A stretch of DNA of 44,254 nt. It comes from Candidatus Bathyarchaeota archaeon (GTDB lineage Archaea > Thermoproteota > Bathyarchaeia > 40CM-2-53-6 > DTDX01). Shown here one piece after another: positions 34,639-44,254 of the stretch. The notes under the pieces were generated by a model. The model was not told where the DNA came from. It saw only the letters and a program-made list of their open reading frames with translations, and did not search any database. The stretch is taken from contig JAGTQY010000007.1 of assembly GCA_018396815.1 (NCBI GenBank), positions 1 through 44,254 of the forward strand. Reading direction: 5' to 3'. The stretch's first letter is position 1. Each line of letters begins with the position of its first letter. The translations under genes were made by a program, and so were the position numbers.

Positions 34639-36975
34639 TTATTTACGGTTTAAAAATGCTACTGGTATAATTAAAGCTGAAAATGCAATAAAAACTATTG
34701 AAGCTAAAATTAACCATGAATAATTTAAGTAAATAAAGTATATTATTAAAAATGAAGCTAAAACACCAATTAATAATGCTAAATGCTTAAACTTTAATGT
34801 TTTTCTAGTTTTCTTTTTTATTAAGTAAAGTGTTGGAAAAGTTATTGGTGTTAAATATGTTAAACCTATTAAAAAGCTTGATGTTAATGCTGAAATTGAA
34901 TTAGCTAAGAAAGGGTTGAAAATTAGTTTTTGCGTTGTAATTGTTGCAGTTAATTTAGATAATTTAAGTGGATAAAGTAAAATTTCGTAAACATTTAAAT
35001 TTAAAACGTTTAACGAGAAGTTTTTGGGGGAGAATTTTAATATATTATTTAGGTTTATTTCAGGGAAACTATTTAAAGAAGCTTCATTCTTTTTATATAC
35101 ACCTGTAATCACATCTGTTTCTTCAATTTTTAATGGAGAAGAAACATTACCTATTAAGTTGCTTCGCCAAAACTTAAATTCATAAAGGTTTAATCCTTCA
35201 AAAAATATTTTTGGTGAAACATCAAATTCAATAGTTGAGTTTTTATCTATCCATTCTGAATGGTTAAATGGTATAGTATAATTATAGATTTTATTGTTAA
35301 TTGTTAATTCAATTTTTGTTCCATTTGGTAAACCTTCAATTGTGAAGAAGATTTTCTTTTGAGTTTTCCATAAACCAGTTAAATTTTTAGGTGAATCCAT
35401 TAAAACTTCAATTGAGGATTCAGAACTGTTAATTGAACCTATCCATCTTGAAAATAAAGCTTTAGTTCCATTTCCATAATCTATAACAGGGTTAACTGAA
35501 ATTTGAACTTTAGAGTTTTCATTATACCATCCTGAAGGATTAACAGTTAACCCTAAAGATTCAACTTTAAGTAAATATTGAAGTTTATATAAAATTGTTA
35601 AATTTAGGTTATTATCTAAATAAATTATTCTTGGATTATTTTTTTCTCCATCACTCCAGCTTGAAAATACAGCTTTAACATTAGGTTTTACATATATTTC
35701 TTTAGGAGCTTCAAGTGTATGGTTTCCAATTCTAATTGGAAGATTGATTAAACCTTCAGGGTTAGAAGTAAATGGTTTGCCATCTATTTTAATCGTTAAA
35801 TTAGGGTAACTTGTATTAATTGTTAAATTAACATTAATTGGTTTTCCTGTTCTATCAACTCTAATAAGGTAAGTTGAGTTTAAACTTGATAAAACTTCGA
35901 TTGTTAATTTAAATTTTGAATCTTGAAAAATATCTCCAGGCTTAAAAACTGCATCATTTAATGTTTCAGTTTCAGGATGCGCATCTACAACTTTAAGGAT
36001 TCCTTTCCCATCAGCTTTAGATTCATCAACATAAAAAATTAACACTCCTTCATCAGGTAGATAATTATCAAAGCCTGTTTTTGCTCTGGCTTCAATTAAA
36101 TAGTAAGTTTTATTTGTTAAAGGAATTTTAATTGCATAAATACTTGATTGAGATAAAGTTTCATGAGGCGTTAACCTTACTATTTTTTCAAAACCATCAT
36201 TAACTTCAATAATTTTGTTTTGAGGCATCCACCCTAATTGAAGTTTACTCCAAACTGATGGATGAACAGGTGTTGAACCATTATTAGCCCATAATCCATG
36301 AGCCATTAGATCCCATTCAGCTACGTAATTATCGTATCCTCCTGAAGAAGTTTTTTCAATATTATAAAGCCTTGGTAAACCAAATGTACGCATTAAATAA
36401 TGCGCGTAAGGTCCTAAAGGATCAAACTCAGATAAACATAAAACTCCAAAGCCTAATCTTCCTTCCATAGTCACTATTGGATATCTATTTCCTTTAGAGC
36501 TAAAAGAAGTTATATCATTAGGATTTCCGGATTTATCTTGATTATCACCTGCATGAACAATTATTATATATTGGTAATTTCTAAAATCTACATCTTTATC
36601 AGCAGCTTTAACAGCATCTATAACTAAAGATTCAAGTTTTTCATTCCCTAAACCATAATATTCAACACTTTTTAGGGTATACCAAACTGGTGTAACATCA
36701 CCTATTAAAGTTACATTTCCATATGAAACTTCTTTAAAATATTCATTAAGTTTATTAAAAATTAAATCTTTAATTTCATCTCTTGTTTTAACGTTTTCTA
36801 AATTTCTAAATTTAACTAAAATAACAATTATGGATTGGGGGCCTGAAGTTACATGTGTATTAATAGAGCTTGGTGAAGTTGATTCAACAGCTTTAACAAT
36901 CATAATTGAATTTGAAGCTATTAAAAAATAAGTTGAAATTAAAAATGTTAAAAGTAATATTGAGGTTTTTTTCAT
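34639..36975 (-). CDS. Secreted M6-like protein with destroyed zinc site (pseudoprotease)
   Basis: The 778-residue protein has a signal peptide (about 4-30), an M6-like domain (about 45-380), InlB-like beta repeats (about 390-640), and C-terminal transmembrane helices (from about 690). It is a clear paralogue of the 1103-residue protein at 37577: both share HAG..Q..NPNDI, WD(L/V)M..G.W, and DAHPET. At the active site, where the paralogue has YIHEFSHLLGLPDLY, this protein has YAHYLMRTFGLPRLY (190-204): catalytic Glu is Tyr193, the second zinc His is Arg196, and the downstream Asp is Arg202. It should not bind zinc or cut peptides. Many N-x-S/T sequons fit surface glycosylation. GGCGG precedes ATG. 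Confidence 0.88.
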   Translation of the reverse strand: MKKTSILLLTFLISTYFLIASNSIMIVKAVESTSPSSINTHVTSGPQSIIVILVKFRNLENVKTRDEIKDLIFNKLNEYFKEVSYGNVTLIGDVTPVWYTLKSVEYYGLGNEKLESLVIDAVKAADKDVDFRNYQYIIIVHAGDNQDKSGNPNDITSFSSKGNRYPIVTMEGRLGFGVLCLSEFDPLGPYAHYLMRTFGLPRLYNIEKTSSGGYDNYVAEWDLMAHGLWANNGSTPVHPSVWSKLQLGWMPQNKIIEVNDGFEKIVRLTPHETLSQSSIYAIKIPLTNKTYYLIEARAKTGFDNYLPDEGVLIFYVDESKADGKGILKVVDAHPETETLNDAVFKPGDIFQDSKFKLTIEVLSSLNSTYLIRVDRTGKPINVNLTINTSYPNLTIKIDGKPFTSNPEGLINLPIRIGNHTLEAPKEIYVKPNVKAVFSSWSDGEKNNPRIIYLDNNLNLTILYKLQYLLKVESLGLTVNPSGWYNENSKVQISVNPVIDYGNGTKALFSRWIGSINSSESSIEVLMDSPKNLTGLWKTQKKIFFTIEGLPNGTKIELTINNKIYNYTIPFNHSEWIDKNSTIEFDVSPKIFFEGLNLYEFKFWRSNLIGNVSSPLKIEETDVITGVYKKNEASLNSFPEINLNNILKFSPKNFSLNVLNLNVYEILLYPLKLSKLTATITTQKLIFNPFLANSISALTSSFLIGLTYLTPITFPTLYLIKKKTRKTLKFKHLALLIGVLASFLIIYFIYLNYSWLILASIVFIAFSALIIPVAFLNRK

Positions 36976-37103
36976 TATTTTACCGCCTTTTTATTTCTTA
37001 TTTAAAGTTTAGTGTTTCAACTTTATTTTAATGAAAGAGTATTAAATTGTTTTAAAAGAAGATAGCTAACTTAATATATTAAAAATTTAAATAATTTAAA
37101 GCT

Positions 37104-37556
37104 TTAATGAAAAACTTTAATTTTATTTTTTCCTTTTTTAAGGATTAAAAGTGCTGCTAAAATTGTTAAAGCTAAAACTGTTAGTATATAATTGTTGAAT
37201 TCAGGAATTGGTTCACCGCTTTGCTCTAAAACAAAATCTAAAGAAGTATCTGAACCATTAGAAACAGTTATGGTAATGTTTCTTTGTTTATATCCTGGAT
37301 GCTCAACTATTAACGTGTATGAACCTGCTGGAAGAAACATTTCATAAAAACCATTCATACTATAAGCTACTTCAACTACCTCATTATTATTTAAAGCTGT
37401 AATTGAAGCCCAACTTAATGGAGTAAGCGTATTATCCATTGTGAAACCGTAAATATAACCGCTTACTCTTCCGCCTCCTTCAGCAGTTAAACCTTCAATA
37501 GTTAAACTTGAAAAAACAATTAATAAGGTTAAAATGTAAAAAATTTTTTTAAACAA
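37104..37556 (-). CDS. Small surface protein with carboxypeptidase-regulatory-like domain and C-terminal anchor
   Basis: The 150-residue protein has a signal peptide (about 1-25), one beta-sandwich domain of the carboxypeptidase-regulatory/PEGA type (GRVSGYIYGF, YSMNGFYEMFLPAGSYTLIVEHPGYKQRNITITV), and a C-terminal PIPEFNNYILTVLALTILAA helix with a basic tail. The PEF-helix-basic ending resembles archaeal PEF-type sorting signals, though no archaeosortase gene is visible here. It starts at TTG 37556, 20 bases after the large protease gene, and is likely co-transcribed with it. Confidence 0.8.
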   Translation of the reverse strand: MFKKIFYILTLLIVFSSLTIEGLTAEGGGRVSGYIYGFTMDNTLTPLSWASITALNNNEVVEVAYSMNGFYEMFLPAGSYTLIVEHPGYKQRNITITVSNGSDTSLDFVLEQSGEPIPEFNNYILTVLALTILAALLILKKGKNKIKVFH

Positions 37557-37576
37557 TTTTAATTCCCTTTTTTTGG

Positions 37577-40500
37577 TTAGTATTTTTTAATAAATAAGTT
37601 TTTCGCAAAATTAATTATGTAAACATAAAGTAGTAAAGGAGAGAAAATTAATGTTGTTACTACTAAAAGGCTTGAAGAAAGCTTCATAATTACTGAATTT
37701 TGGAAGATTTCAGCTAAAAGTATTAAAGTGAAGCTTGAAAACCATAAAGTTAAACTTGAAAGCTTTAAAGTTTTTGTAAATTTACGTTTAATTATGAAGA
37801 AGCTTAAGGGTAAAATTAAAGGCGTTAAATATGTTAAACCTATTAAAAAGCTTGCTAAAACTCCTGAAGATATAACAGCTAATTCAGGGTTAAAACTTAG
37901 AAAGGAATAGAAAATTTTAGTTAAATAAAGAATTTTTAAAAGTGGATAAAGAATAATTTTAAAGGTTTCTTTAAGTTTACTGTTTAAATCTATAGTTTCA
38001 GCGATTTTAGGGCTAAAACTGTAATACCAAACGTTAAAAACATTCATAAAGTTTCTTCCAGCAAATGTAGCCATAACTTCTTTATCTCTAAAGTTTCTTA
38101 AGAAGTTTACTTCTGGAGAAAACTCTGAACCATACGTAGCTGTAGCAATTAAACATCCAAAAGCTTCCCTATAAACAGCAGTTATATTTTTTGGTGAATC
38201 TAAAATAAATGCATTATTGATTTTATTTCCTTTTTCATCTTTCCAATATTCAAATACGTATTTTGTTAAAGATGAAGAAACAATTTTTGTAATGTTTAAG
38301 TTTATTTCGCTATTTGAATCAAACCAATAACTGTAAATAAATGGAGTTGAAGTGTTAAATTCTTGATTATTTAATGAAATTGTTATCAATGTTCCGTTTG
38401 GTAAACCTGAACTTGATAAAACAAGTTTATATTGAGTTTTCCATTTAGCTTTTATAATTTTAGGTGAATCCATTAATATTGAACCTGAAGCTTCAGTAGA
38501 ATTTATATCGCCAATCCAACCTTCAAAAATTTTTTTTGTACCATTTGTGAATTCTAAATATTTTTGAATAGAGTAATTCGCTATACTATTGTGAATGTAC
38601 CAACCTTCACCTTCAGCTTCACCATACAAAGATTCAATTTTTAAATAATGCTCTATTCGCCAAGAAGCTTCAATAATTTTAGGTGAATCCATTAATATTG
38701 AAGCGTTTAAACCATTAAAGTTTAAATCTCCTTTCCAACAAGCAAAAATTTTTCTTGTTCCATTTTCAACTATTAACGGTTGAGAAACATATATGATGGC
38801 GGTTTCACCTTCATTGTACCAACCTTCACCTGAAACGAAACTAAAAGATGATTTAATTTCAAGATAGTACTGTTTTAACCATTTAGCTGAAATTTTGTAT
38901 GGGCGTGTTACGGTTAAACTTAATTCTGTAGAGTTAGAGTTTACATCACCAATCCAACCAATAAATATTAATCTAGTTTTTCCGTTTTGTAAAATAGATG
39001 GGTTTTCAGCTTTAATTAAAGCGGTTTCACCTTCATTGTACCAACCTTCACCTGAAACGAAACCGCCTCCAGAATCAATTGAAACTTTAAATTGTTTTTG
39101 ATAATTTGCTGATAAAAAGTAATCTTTATTTATTTTTAATGTTTTAGGGTTTGTTGAATCTCCATCGCTCCAACCTGCAAATATAAGCCTTTCATTACCG
39201 TTTAAACTAGCTGTTTTTTCAACTTCAATTGTTAAAGTAGTATTTAAAGCTGTTAATTTAACTTCCCCGAAAGCATCAGGTGTATAGCTTGTTCCATTAA
39301 TTTTTACAGTTAAATTTTCAGGAACTTTAATTACAACTATGAAGCCTACAGTAACTTCTTTTAAAGCATAATTATTGCTCCAATCCATATCAACTCCTGA
39401 AGCCCCTAAATCTATTTCAACTTTAATTATATGCCTCCCGCTTTTAGGTTTCCATTGAATTGAAAAATCTTTTATTTCTCCTTTCGCTAAAGAAGAAACT
39501 TTAATTTTCTCATATATATCATTATCTATATAAAAGTTTAAGTAAAAATTATAACTTGTTTTAAAACCTTTATTTACAACTGTAGCTTTTATTATTGTTG
39601 TTTCATTAACTCTAGGTGGATAAGGGTTAATTGTTAATTCTTGAATTGCTATATCTGGGGCTGGAGATGAGCTTCCAACCATAATTGTATAAGAGAGATT
39701 TTCATGTTTTAAAAGAATTTTTATTGAGAAATTGTTTTTAGAATCAAAGAATATTTCTCCAACTTGAAAAGCTGCATCATCTAAAGTTGATGTTTCAGGA
39801 TGAGCATCTTGAATTTTAACTATTCCTTCACCTGAACCAGCATTATCATTAATTAAACTTATTAAAACCCCTTCACTTGGTAAAGCTGCATCAAAACCTA
39901 TTTTAGCTCTAACCTCAACTAAGTAATATCTACTTGTTGAAATTTGAATCTTTAAAACTTGATAACCTTCTGTTGAAATTTCAATTGGGTTAAGAGTAAC
40001 GTTAACTCTAGAACCTAACTTAATCGTTAAAATTTTAGATTCTTCAATCCATTTGAGTTTTATTTTTCCCCAACTAGTGTAATGCGCTGGGCTTGAACCT
40101 GGTGGATTACCGTTCCAGCAGCCTCTATCCATTACATCCCAGTTTCCAACAGGTCTAGATTGGCTACCATAAACGTATAAATCTGGTAAACCTAATAAAT
40201 GAGAAAATTCATGAATATAAACTCCTAAAGGTACAGCGCCTTGAGCTTCAGTTTCCGGGATTATAGCTGCAGAACTAAAACTCCAATTATCGTTTGTTCT
40301 AAATGTTATCCCTAGGAGATAAGTTATTGACCAAATATCGTTTGGGTTTCTGCTTGATTCCTGCCCGTTTCCAGCATGAAGAACCATTAAATATTTATAA
40401 CCTGAAAAATTTACTTGTTTATCCACAGCTTTAATAGCGTCTTGAATTAAAATCCATGTATCTGGGAAACCATCGTTGTTTCCATCATCAGGTTTTAATC

Positions 40501-40888
40501 CATCTCTTCCATAGTAAACCATTGTTCGATTTAATTTAACCCAACCGAATATTTCTGTTTCAACCCAAACTTTTCCAAATGAAACCTCCATAAAGTAACT
40601 ATTTAACTTATTAAATTCATTTTTCAATTCATTAATTGATTTTGTATGGTTGTAATCTGAAAACTCCACAGCTATTACAGCAAGTTTTAATGCTCCAGCT
40701 TCAGGTACATTACTAAAGTTTAAGTTTTGAGTGAAACTATAATCTTTAGTAATGTTTAAAGAAGGAGCATAGTAATATTGAGGTTTAAAGTTATAACTGA
40801 AATTTAAACTGTTTGCTTGAATTAATAAGGGAGAAATAAAAAGGATTAAAAGAATAAACACTATTAATTTAGGTTTTATAAGAGACAC
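37577..40888 (-). CDS. Secreted M6-like metalloprotease with CARDB, InlB-like repeats and CFI-box
   Basis: The 1103-residue protein has a signal peptide (about 5-25), an M6-type catalytic domain with zinc motif HEFSHLLGLPD (H226, E227, H230, D236), WDVMDRGCWNG, a CARDB-like domain (about 408-515), four or five InlB-like repeats with GEGWYNEG and MDSPKII.A.W (about 530-930), a CFI-box-like motif CLIATATYGS with FLRNFRDKEV (about 931-985), and C-terminal transmembrane helices. It probably acts outside the cell, anchored in the membrane, digesting proteins for the amino-acid catabolism seen elsewhere in the window. Many N-glycosylation sequons are present. GTG 40888 follows GGGGA. Confidence 0.88.
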   Translation of the reverse strand: MSLIKPKLIVFILLILFISPLLIQANSLNFSYNFKPQYYYAPSLNITKDYSFTQNLNFSNVPEAGALKLAVIAVEFSDYNHTKSINELKNEFNKLNSYFMEVSFGKVWVETEIFGWVKLNRTMVYYGRDGLKPDDGNNDGFPDTWILIQDAIKAVDKQVNFSGYKYLMVLHAGNGQESSRNPNDIWSITYLLGITFRTNDNWSFSSAAIIPETEAQGAVPLGVYIHEFSHLLGLPDLYVYGSQSRPVGNWDVMDRGCWNGNPPGSSPAHYTSWGKIKLKWIEESKILTIKLGSRVNVTLNPIEISTEGYQVLKIQISTSRYYLVEVRAKIGFDAALPSEGVLISLINDNAGSGEGIVKIQDAHPETSTLDDAAFQVGEIFFDSKNNFSIKILLKHENLSYTIMVGSSSPAPDIAIQELTINPYPPRVNETTIIKATVVNKGFKTSYNFYLNFYIDNDIYEKIKVSSLAKGEIKDFSIQWKPKSGRHIIKVEIDLGASGVDMDWSNNYALKEVTVGFIVVIKVPENLTVKINGTSYTPDAFGEVKLTALNTTLTIEVEKTASLNGNERLIFAGWSDGDSTNPKTLKINKDYFLSANYQKQFKVSIDSGGGFVSGEGWYNEGETALIKAENPSILQNGKTRLIFIGWIGDVNSNSTELSLTVTRPYKISAKWLKQYYLEIKSSFSFVSGEGWYNEGETAIIYVSQPLIVENGTRKIFACWKGDLNFNGLNASILMDSPKIIEASWRIEHYLKIESLYGEAEGEGWYIHNSIANYSIQKYLEFTNGTKKIFEGWIGDINSTEASGSILMDSPKIIKAKWKTQYKLVLSSSGLPNGTLITISLNNQEFNTSTPFIYSYWFDSNSEINLNITKIVSSSLTKYVFEYWKDEKGNKINNAFILDSPKNITAVYREAFGCLIATATYGSEFSPEVNFLRNFRDKEVMATFAGRNFMNVFNVWYYSFSPKIAETIDLNSKLKETFKIILYPLLKILYLTKIFYSFLSFNPELAVISSGVLASFLIGLTYLTPLILPLSFFIIKRKFTKTLKLSSLTLWFSSFTLILLAEIFQNSVIMKLSSSLLVVTTLIFSPLLLYVYIINFAKNLFIKKY
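38454..38702. repeat. 30-nt exact direct repeat within the InlB-like modules
   Basis: The same 30 bases occur at 38454-38483 and 38673-38702 (period 219), encoding the ILMDSPKII segment on the minus strand. Synonymous positions are identical, suggesting recent module duplication or conversion. Confidence 0.75.
38799..39063. repeat. 43-nt exact direct repeat within the InlB-like modules
   Basis: Identical 43-base copies lie at 38799-38841 and 39021-39063 (period 222), encoding FVSGEGWYNEGETA on the minus strand. With the 30-nt repeat nearby this marks recent duplication of modules of about 73 residues. Confidence 0.8.
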
Positions 40889-41039: not shown

Positions 41040-42266
41040 ATGAAAATTTCAAAAAAAAGTTTTTTAATTATAATTTGTTTAGTTTTTATTGTTAAAGTTT
41101 TACTAGCAGCTTTAACAGCTTGGAGTTACGAGTTTATTTTTTTAGTTAAATCTGCTTCAATCAAGTTTAAAATTGATAAATTAAGTGCAAATCCATGGAT
41201 TATACTGGAGAATACACTTTATAATTTTTGGTTAATTTTACCGGTTAAGCATCCTTCTTTAGATAAATGGTTGATTCATTTAGAGGTTTTTCCAGAAAAT
41301 TTTGAAGGCGCCCTTTTAATTTTCATTCTTAAGCTTCCAATTTTAATTTTAGATGGTTTATGCGCATTTTTAATTTATAAAATTGCTGAAGTTTTTAATA
41401 AAGATAAAGCTTTAACAGCTTTAACTATTTGGATTTTTAATCCATATGTAACTTTAACAAGTGAAATGATTGGTTCTAATGATTTAATTATTGTTTTCCT
41501 TATTTTACTTTCAATTCTACTTATATTAAAAAGTAACTTTTTAAGTTGCTTTCCTTTAATTGTTGGAATAGCATTTAAGCTTTATCCAATTTTAATAACA
41601 CCTGTTTTAGCAATATATATGTTTAAAAAAGGTTTGAAAAGGGATTTAATATTTTTAATTTTAAGTGTTGTAATTGGTGTTTTTCTTTATGATTTTTGGT
41701 TAAAAAAAGCAGGTTTAAATTTTGATTTTACACTCGTTAACTATAGCCCATTAACTTTTCAAGCTTCAGAAATGTTTCTCAGCCAGTATACAGCTAGAGT
41801 TGGTTTAAGCGTTGCTTCAGCCACTGCTTACGCTTTATTAATTTTTGATTACTGGCAAATTAATAAAATTGAAGCTTTAATTACAAAAGGCTTGTTAGGC
41901 TTTCTTTTAGTCTACTTTGCTTTTTTCAATTGGTGGCCTCAATACTTGCTTATTTTAACAGCATTTTTAACTTTAGATTATGTTGAAAATAAAAAGTATT
42001 TTTATATGGTTTTAATTTCAGCTTTTTTTGTGGAGCTTGTTTACTTTGAGTTTGCTACTGAACAAAGCTTTTTCTTTATTTATAATTATTTTGAATGGAT
42101 GCGTAAAGCTGCTTCAGCTTTAATTAAGTTTAAATCAAGTATTGCTTCAGAAATGGTTTTAGGGCCTTTACTTAGAAGTTTATACACGGTTTTAAGCTTG
42201 ATTTACGCTTTAAAAATATTTTTTAATTTTTCATCTTTAGAGCTTAAAAAACTAGGTTTAAATTAA
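41040..42266 (+). CDS. GT-C-like integral membrane glycosyltransferase, paralogue 1
   Basis: The 408-residue protein has about ten hydrophobic helices and features of GT-C (PIG-M/DUF2029-like) mannosyltransferases: an acidic residue in the first outer loop (WSYEF), KLPILILDGLCAFLIYKIAE, LTIWIFNPYVTLTSEM and IAFKLYPILITPVLAIY. Such enzymes use polyprenyl-phosphate sugars at the outer membrane face. It is divergent from the surface-protease genes and 12 bases from its paralogue. Adding glycans to the neighbouring sequon-rich proteins is an attractive inference. Confidence 0.75.
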   Translation: MKISKKSFLIIICLVFIVKVLLAALTAWSYEFIFLVKSASIKFKIDKLSANPWIILENTLYNFWLILPVKHPSLDKWLIHLEVFPENFEGALLIFILKLPILILDGLCAFLIYKIAEVFNKDKALTALTIWIFNPYVTLTSEMIGSNDLIIVFLILLSILLILKSNFLSCFPLIVGIAFKLYPILITPVLAIYMFKKGLKRDLIFLILSVVIGVFLYDFWLKKAGLNFDFTLVNYSPLTFQASEMFLSQYTARVGLSVASATAYALLIFDYWQINKIEALITKGLLGFLLVYFAFFNWWPQYLLILTAFLTLDYVENKKYFYMVLISAFFVELVYFEFATEQSFFFIYNYFEWMRKAASALIKFKSSIASEMVLGPLLRSLYTVLSLIYALKIFFNFSSLELKKLGLN

Positions 42267-42278
42267 AGGGCGTTTAAA

Positions 42279-43547
42279 ATGGTTACTCGAAAAACTTTAT
42301 TTTTAATTATTTTAGCTTTAACTATTAAGGGTTTTCTTGCTTTAATAACACCTAGAAGCTTTGATTTCATAAATATAGCTTATATGGGTAGTTTTAAAGC
42401 TTTTAAGCTTCCATCTTTAACACCTTATTTTTTTACAGCTTTATTAATGAATTTACCTTTTAGAGTTTGGCTTTTAATGCCTATACCTCATCCATCTGTA
42501 TATAATTTTTTAAGGTATGATTTTTTCTCTGCTACAACTGAGGCTTTCCTTTACGTTGGCTTAATGAAGCTTCCAATGCTTATTTTTGATGGTTTAACAG
42601 GTTTAATAATTTATAAAATAGTTAAAATTTATACCTTGAAGAAAGAGGCTTTAACAGCTGTTTGGCTTTGGTTTTTTAATCCTTATTTAACAATTGCCAT
42701 AGAAATGGATGGAACAATAGATATTGTAAGTGTTTTCTTTGCTTCAACCAGCATTTATTTTTTCATTAAAGAAAAATTTAGTTTAAGCGGTGTTTTATTA
42801 GCGGTGGGAAGTATTGCAAGATTTTGGCCTTTAACTTTAACACCTTTTTATTTAATTGTTTTAATTTGTAGGAAAACTTGGAAGAATCTTACAGCTTTTG
42901 CATTAAGTTTTTTAATAACTATTTTAGTGTTTATAACGCCTATAGCTTTAATTAATGGTTTAAAGGTTTTTCAAGATTTATATGATATGTTAATTTCTTA
43001 TGCTGCAGAACATGAATTTAAATGGTTTTTAGGTTTCAATATTTCAGGTTTAAATAAAGTAACCATAAATATAGTAAGCCTTTTCTATATTCTTCAGGCT
43101 TTCTTAACATTAAAGTTTTGGAGAAAAAATTTAAAAACTATTTTGGAATGCGCTTTTTTAGTTTTACTAGTTTTTACAGCCTTTGCTTACTGGAACAGAT
43201 ATTATACAATTTGGGTTACACAATTATTGATTATAGATTACGCATTAAATAACGTAGCTAAACATGAGAAAAAATTAAATTATAAAGTTTTATTTATTTT
43301 ATTTTGGGTTGGTTTAGCTTTATTTAATTTTTCATTATGGTGGATTCCACCGCTTTTCTTTATTTACCCTTATACAAAATGGCTTTCAAATCTAGATATT
43401 GCTTTTAAAGCTTTTGGAGCTAAAGAATTTTCAAGCCTTTTAATTCCAACTTTTGGAAGATCAATTTCAGCTGCTTCAGCTTTAATATACTTTATGAAAA
43501 TTAATTTTAGAAACTTTAAGAAAGAATATTTATTTAAGTTTAAGTAA
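42279..43547 (+). CDS. GT-C-like integral membrane glycosyltransferase, paralogue 2
   Basis: The 422-residue protein aligns by eye with its upstream neighbour: KLPMLIFDGLTGLIIYKIVK, WLWFFNPYLTIAIEMDG and GSIARFWPLTLTPFYLIVL match the same segments, and the first loop carries Asp (RSFDF) where the neighbour has Glu. About ten membrane helices. The pair is a tandem duplication that has diverged considerably, so the two may transfer different sugars or to different acceptors. Confidence 0.75.
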   Translation: MVTRKTLFLIILALTIKGFLALITPRSFDFINIAYMGSFKAFKLPSLTPYFFTALLMNLPFRVWLLMPIPHPSVYNFLRYDFFSATTEAFLYVGLMKLPMLIFDGLTGLIIYKIVKIYTLKKEALTAVWLWFFNPYLTIAIEMDGTIDIVSVFFASTSIYFFIKEKFSLSGVLLAVGSIARFWPLTLTPFYLIVLICRKTWKNLTAFALSFLITILVFITPIALINGLKVFQDLYDMLISYAAEHEFKWFLGFNISGLNKVTINIVSLFYILQAFLTLKFWRKNLKTILECAFLVLLVFTAFAYWNRYYTIWVTQLLIIDYALNNVAKHEKKLNYKVLFILFWVGLALFNFSLWWIPPLFFIYPYTKWLSNLDIAFKAFGAKEFSSLLIPTFGRSISAASALIYFMKINFRNFKKEYLFKFK

Positions 43548-43880: not shown

Positions 43881-43918
43881 TGCTTTAAACATTAAAGAAT
43901 GTGGGATAAGAAAAATTG

Positions 43919-44254
43919 ATGATGAGCGAATTAAAAAAAACTTTTCTTAAGCTTCTTGAAGAAGATTTAGAATTTAGATACGCTATTGCGGGTTTAATTG
44001 GGTTACGTGAGGTTTTAAATAGGCTTGATAAAGTTGAGGAAGAAATTAAAAAATTATGGGAGGAAGTAAAGGAATTAAGAATTGGGCAAAACAAGCTATG
44101 GGAGGAAGTAAGGAGTTTAAGAGAAGGACAAGAAAAACTTTGGGAGAATCAGAATAAGCTATGGGAAGAAGTTAAAGCGTTGAGAGAAGGACAGAATAAG
44201 CTATGGGAAGAAGTTAAAGCTTTAAGAGAAGGGCAAAACAAGCTATGGGAAGAA
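43919..44254 (+). CDS. DUF3782-like coiled-coil protein (3' end beyond window)
   Basis: From ATG 43919 (ATG 43922 and TTG 43916 are alternatives) the frame stays open to the window end, 112 codons. After an N-terminal helix pair (LKLLEEDLEFRYAIAGLIGL, REVLNRLDKVEEE) it becomes a repeating coiled coil with the 14-residue unit NKLWEEVKALREGQ. This matches archaeal DUF3782 proteins, where such a coiled coil precedes a PD-(D/E)XK nuclease-like domain; that part would lie beyond the window. Function unknown. Confidence 0.78.
   Translation, partial: MMSELKKTFLKLLEEDLEFRYAIAGLIGLREVLNRLDKVEEEIKKLWEEVKELRIGQNKLWEEVRSLREGQEKLWENQNKLWEEVKALREGQNKLWEEVKALREGQNKLWEE
44153..44254 (+). repeat. 42-nt tandem repeat encoding heptad pairs
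   Basis: Near-identical 42-base units begin at 44153, 44195 and 44237 and run off the window; older, diverged units precede them from about 44050. Each encodes two heptads of the coiled coil. Confidence 0.8.

Follow-up and report, generated by a model that had tools for sequence, protein, structure and literature searches.

A probable conserved M6 pseudoprotease encoded near an intact M6 metalloprotease in Candidatus Bathyarchaeota

The stretch of DNA that was analysed, referred to here as the window, comprises 44,254 nucleotides of contig JAGTQY010000007.1 from Candidatus Bathyarchaeota archaeon (assembly GCA_018396815.1, 1.49 Mb in 12 contigs, designated G000). Three genes located on its minus strand are transcribed in the order 1103-, 150- and 778-amino acid protein. 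The features of the locus, with the evidence used to define each of them, are the following:

34639..36975, minus strand: gene for the 778-amino acid M6 pseudoprotease (open reading frame, profile searches, BLASTP, column comparison)
36370..36402, minus strand: degenerate zinc motif HYLMRTFGLPR, residues 192-202 of the 778-amino acid protein (alignment to intact M6 rows)
37104..37556, minus strand: gene for a 150-amino acid protein, between the dead and active M6 genes (open reading frame, profile searches; orthologue in the sister species)
37577..40888, minus strand: gene for the intact 1103-amino acid M6 protease (open reading frame, profile searches, HExxH scan)

The initial annotation of this region had described an M6-like protease paired with a catalytically dead paralogue, and the analysis bore this out: both open reading frames were found in place, their M6 domains align, and the zinc motif is destroyed in the 778-amino acid protein. 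The active protein consists of an M6 domain carrying the motif HEFSHLLGLPD (residues 226-236), CARDB, InlB-like repeats, a CFI-box-CTERM domain and C-terminal hydrophobic segments. The dead protein has a signal-like N-terminal hydrophobic segment, an M6 domain at approximately residues 44-380, InlB-like repeats, an EGLPNGT module and C-terminal hydrophobic segments. An N-terminal hydrophobic segment is present in both proteins; the CFI-box-CTERM domain was detected by profile search in the active protein and not in the dead one. The 150-amino acid protein has a signal-like N-terminus and a carboxypeptidase regulatory-like domain, and its tail is weakly PEF-CTERM-like (TIGR03024, E 0.01, below cut-off). 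Two exosortase/archaeosortase-family genes are located in the window's genome, elsewhere than this locus (G000:C1). On the plus strand, positions 41040-43547 encode two adjoining hydrophobic, probably multi-pass membrane proteins that are about 30% identical to each other, are kept in the sister species, and matched no Pfam or NCBIfam family above cut-off. The start of another open reading frame, with a repeated coiled-coil-like unit (KLWEEVKALREGQN), is found at 43916-44254 (plus strand), where it is cut by the end of the window.

A BLASTP comparison of the dead and active proteins aligned their M6 domains over 381 residues at 36% identity (E 2e-59), and it also matched the repeats and the C-terminal segments. 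In this alignment HEFSHLLGLPD stands opposite HYLMRTFGLPR, the dead protein having lost the Asp, the second of the two His and the catalytic Glu. The TIGR03296 model of the M6 domain (cut-off 110.8 bits) scored 155.1 bits with the active protein and covered the whole domain of the dead protein with 107.2 bits (E 1.4e-30), just below the cut-off. The corresponding scores for PF05547 were 60.3 bits for the active protein and 12.9 bits, versus a cut-off of 22, for the dead protein. By profile and alignment the dead protein has the same domain as the M6 metalloproteases (TIGR03296/PF05547; immune inhibitor A, PDB 4yu5), from which it differs by the destroyed HExxHxxGxxD and by the scores below cut-off. 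Its homology to M6 metalloproteases is, on these comparisons, clear, although formal membership is narrowly missed.

The sister species of the same genus, G001, retains the whole block, with at least eight neighbouring genes in identical order; both its dead copy and its active copy matched at 80%. Orthologues of the dead gene were found in five of the 38 genomes of the order, a count that includes the window's genome. These five genomes belong to three families: f1 (G000, G001), f3 (G023, G024) and f4 (G026). A profile built from the five dead domains recovered these orthologues at 557-615 bits, and across the class (256 genomes) the runner-up scored 259 bits. A sample of 398 genomes from the phylum gave no other match above 343 bits, and the protein with that score retains an intact motif. 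An f3 copy is located on JAPWUR010000014.1 (Candidatus Bathyarchaeota archaeon isolate RSWS8), and the neighbourhood of the dead gene in f3 includes a glycosyltransferase-like (PMT_2) gene. The claim that the dead copy has an intact signal peptide and membrane anchor held in part. The N-terminal hydrophobic segment is there, but the anchor corresponds to several C-terminal hydrophobic segments that are missing from both f3 copies (2/5), and anchoring in the membrane is thus not shared by all the orthologues. Two further proteins with a damaged M6 motif were noted. A 500-amino acid M6 protein with the motif ARSTALMIGLW (L098:1519-3021, minus strand) represents a second, separate catalytic loss in G022, a genome that also carries an intact M6 protein. 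G164, from a different family of the class, encodes a 905-amino acid protein (L097:343-3060, minus strand) that combines a dead M6 domain with CARDB.

After removal of rows contained in others, 62 distinct M6 rows were available: 55 intact, five dead, and two dead but very divergent ones (L097 and L098), which were excluded from the counts. A full-length scan detected neither HExxH nor HxxxH in any of the five dead proteins, while HExxH occurs exactly once in each of the six long active proteins. The zinc/catalytic motif HExxHxxGxxD of active M6 metalloproteases is replaced in the dead proteins by HYLMRTFGLPR (window), HYLARTFGLPR (G001), HGILRNFGLEN, HGILRNFGLED and RYLLQSMGLPN. Among the intact rows, 13 columns reach a conservation of at least 98%. 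The nine non-catalytic ones, including the Met-turn methionine M224, are identical in all five dead rows, and the four catalytic ones (H192, E193, H196 and D202) are all altered among them (Fisher p 0.0014). E193 and H196 were lost in every dead row, D202 in four and H192 in one (f4), and the replacements vary from family to family. The G-L inside the motif, the Met-turn region and most other conserved M6 columns are retained, in agreement with the earlier observation that the surrounding fold motifs are kept. The dead protein thus shows what is expected of a pseudoprotease, namely a protease homologue in which the catalytic residues have gone while the remainder of the domain persists. In addition, 12 positions are invariant in the dead rows yet rare (<15%) in the intact rows, including E220, H226, A230 and V237 beside the Met-turn. 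A predicted model of the dead domain built from a four-row alignment was poor (mean pLDDT 49.7), and therefore the fold is inferred from sequence alone; a second prediction, likewise from a four-row alignment, was also weak (pLDDT 64.4).

To place the dead proteins among their relatives, one tree was built from 43 of the 62 rows (19 thinned) and another from 36 of those 43, with the longest branches as well as L097 and L098 removed. In the 36-row tree the five dead rows group into a single clade (support 100/100; recovered in all 200 bootstrap trees), apart from the active paralogues of the order, which indicates that the catalytic loss is ancient. The f4 row (L014) and the f3 rows drew a Treekit warning as long branches that meet, which affects the branching order within the dead clade. 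The nearest intact relatives of the clade are placed only weakly in this tree (61/28). In the tree of 43 rows, the branch that sets off the five dead rows also takes in L097, which itself sits at the end of a branch of length 3.28; for this reason L097 was counted as a possible far member only. The possibility that the dead copy is a recent tandem duplicate of its neighbour was rejected, since the dead rows group with one another and not with the active rows of the order. The trees show the dead copy as a lineage of its own, and an old one.

Selection on the M6 domain was assessed by pairwise Nei-Gojobori dN/dS between the two f1 species and between the two f3 species. In f1 the values were 0.161 (95% 0.106-0.238) for the dead copy and 0.202 (0.131-0.304) for the active one. 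In f3 they were 0.099 (0.066-0.142) and 0.078 (0.050-0.115), respectively, and these are less exact because dS is near 1. Tree path lengths of the dead and active lineages were 1.21 versus 1.23 between f1 and f4, 1.72 versus 1.63 between f1 and f3, and 2.06 versus 1.93 between f4 and f3. The two lineages evolve at a nearly equal rate across families; within f3 the dead domain is faster (tree distance 0.219 versus 0.152 for the active one). The reading frame is open in all five dead genes, and neutral simulation of the window's dead gene at half the observed dS produced approximately 24 stops on average, with none of 500 runs free of stops. The low dN/dS, the equal rates and the simulated stops reject relaxed selection for the dead M6 domain as a whole. 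Relaxed selection was the outcome that the initial annotation had named as contrary to its proposal, and the dN/dS values gave no sign of it. Maintenance by selection over long times, also expected of a pseudoprotease, is evident in the dN/dS values and in the rates across the three families.

These data bear directly on the idea that the gene is a decaying pseudogene of the adjoining protease. The loss of the catalytic motif and its differing replacements between families are what decay could leave behind. The open frames in all five genes, the dN/dS of 0.10-0.16, the neutral simulation and the retained non-catalytic M6 signature weigh against it, and this reading was rejected as having next to no probability. 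The earlier statement that the dead copy is not a simple pseudogene is upheld by its orthologues in three families, a dN/dS well below 1, a rate like that of the active protein and a loss confined to the catalytic residues.

The long active paralogue is present in all five genomes with the dead gene; conversely, the dead gene was found in five of the six genomes with the long active paralogue and in none of the 32 without it. As these genomes are related, the significance of a co-occurrence test is overstated, and at the level of families (f1, f3 and f4 out of six) the support is weak. A survey of relatives for the pair, as suggested previously, gave a divided answer: both genes are in all five genomes, but they are neighbours in the window's genus alone (G000, G001), and f3 and f4 carry them on separate contigs. 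The sixth genome, G025, has the active gene and no dead gene. One of the genes flanking the dead gene in G024 had no match in G025, in a search run without a positive control. A second flanking gene (100% in G024, 91% in G023) was represented in G025 only by paralogues, at 43-46% in strong matches. An assembly gap is likely in G025, given that the two flanking genes of the dead locus are missing. Neither the dead nor the active gene was found in G027, which belongs to the same family as G026 (f4) and is 98% complete. In f3, the active M6 gene is found directly behind an exosortase/archaeosortase-family gene (L047:6960-8000, plus strand; L049:3935-4948, minus strand; L050:7381-8415, plus strand). 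For the L047 and L050 proteins the best model was TIGR04297 (thaumarchaeosortase; E 5e-51 and 5e-46, respectively), which did not reach its cut-off, and TIGR04178 was above cut-off; the L049 protein matches PF09721 just below cut-off.

Orthologous active M6 genes occur in one further family of the order, f6, which has no dead copy. In four f6 genomes (G029, G030, G031 and G033), the active M6 gene is followed immediately by one for a 772-816-amino acid protein with the repeats and the EGLPNGT module of the dead protein (L051:7520-9850, L053:7507-9867, L055:9917-12235 and L136:2417-4867, plus strand). The N-terminal 270 or so residues of these companions are unrelated to the dead protein. A hidden M6 domain in them was considered and rejected, as only the repeat and C-terminal parts match. 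Companions of this type were also found in G035, G036 and G037, with no M6 gene beside them on the stretch read. A non-catalytic companion of the active M6 may thus recur in another form in f6; the repeat modules themselves are widespread in these genomes.

The 778-amino acid protein is probably a conserved M6 pseudoprotease that arose by one ancient loss, is held under purifying selection, and would bind instead of cut. An M6 paralogue would have lost its zinc ligands and catalytic glutamate once, before the split of the carrier families in this order. Purifying selection would then have preserved it as a secreted protein that in f1 and f4 is held at the membrane. As the cutting site was lost long ago yet the gene was kept by selection, the protein probably serves a purpose other than proteolysis, for instance binding at the cell surface. 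The scaffold on the substrate side, which is retained, would serve to hold a surface protein or a peptide, and E220, H226, A230 and V237 around the Met-turn would form a reworked binding face. It is very improbable that the protein is still an enzyme through migrated residues, for example by a new metal site made from H226, H238 and their neighbours. Both histidines are invariant in the five dead rows, and H226, two residues past the Met-turn methionine, occurs in none of the 55 intact rows. However, H238 is not peculiar to the dead rows, being found in 65% of intact ones; near the old site no invariant set of three acidic or histidine residues is evident; and H192 is lost in f4.

What such a pseudoprotease binds can be read in two ways. 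It is possible, but on balance doubtful, that the ligand is the active M6 enzyme or its substrate, with the dead protein acting as a scaffold, presenter or inhibitor for surface proteolysis. By analogy with iRhoms and ADAM17, a dedicated partner of this kind would serve as inhibitor, chaperone or presenter. Such a role is consistent with the long active paralogue in all five dead-gene genomes and the lack of both in G027, with the adjacency of the genes in both species of the window's genus, and with the repeats, EGLPNGT module and C-terminal segments common to both proteins. The non-M6 EGLPNGT/repeat protein right behind the active M6 in four f6 genomes fits as well. On the other hand, the genes are not adjacent in f3 and f4, f6 has an orthologous active M6 without a dead copy, the f3 dead copies lack C-terminal hydrophobic segments, and the repeat modules are common in these genomes. 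The separate loci in f3 and f4 point instead to an independent surface protein, a dead M6 domain co-opted for adhesion, peptide capture or envelope structure with no tie to the active enzyme. This alternative, which we consider about as likely as the partner role, agrees with the separate, old lineage in the trees, the clade-specific invariant residues and the PMT_2 glycosyltransferase-like neighbour in f3. What speaks against it is that, in the genomes at hand, the dead gene never occurs without the long active paralogue.

Dead M6 domains are already a known kind, as shown by the existence of NF052323 (NCBIfam, T9SS-dependent M6-like inactivated metalloprotease), which likewise describes an M6-like domain annotated as inactivated. 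This model has 1043 positions, is named for type IX secretion and has a cut-off of 600 bits. The window's dead protein did not match it even at E 1, and the f4 orthologue scored 24.9 bits. On these scores, the archaeal dead M6 lineage is separate from NF052323. Pseudoproteases are best studied in eukaryotes. In one abstract the T9SS is described as confined to some Bacteroidetes, and metzincin motifs are treated in PMC12237041; nothing on archaeal M6 pseudoproteases was found in the titles and abstract openings of the open-access literature. As outlined in abstracts, iRhoms offer a possible working analogy, a dead protease relative controlling an active membrane metalloprotease (ADAM17). They differ in that they have a rhomboid serine-protease fold, are eukaryotic and have a proven partner, whereas any partner of the archaeal dead M6 is hypothetical.

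A two-part surface protease system may also be imagined, although we consider it unlikely. In it the active M6 bearing the CFI-box would act with a dedicated non-catalytic partner, the M6 pseudoprotease in f1, f3 and f4 and the repeat-module protein behind the enzyme in f6. If true, it would be a prokaryotic counterpart of the pairing between a regulator pseudoprotease and a membrane metalloprotease. Surveys of protein degradation in archaea would overstate the number of enzymes if they took genes of this kind for M6 peptidases. A dead M6 lineage that extends over three families of an uncultured archaeal order and evolves at a rate like that of its active paralogue is a clean case of a selected function for a non-catalytic M6 scaffold.
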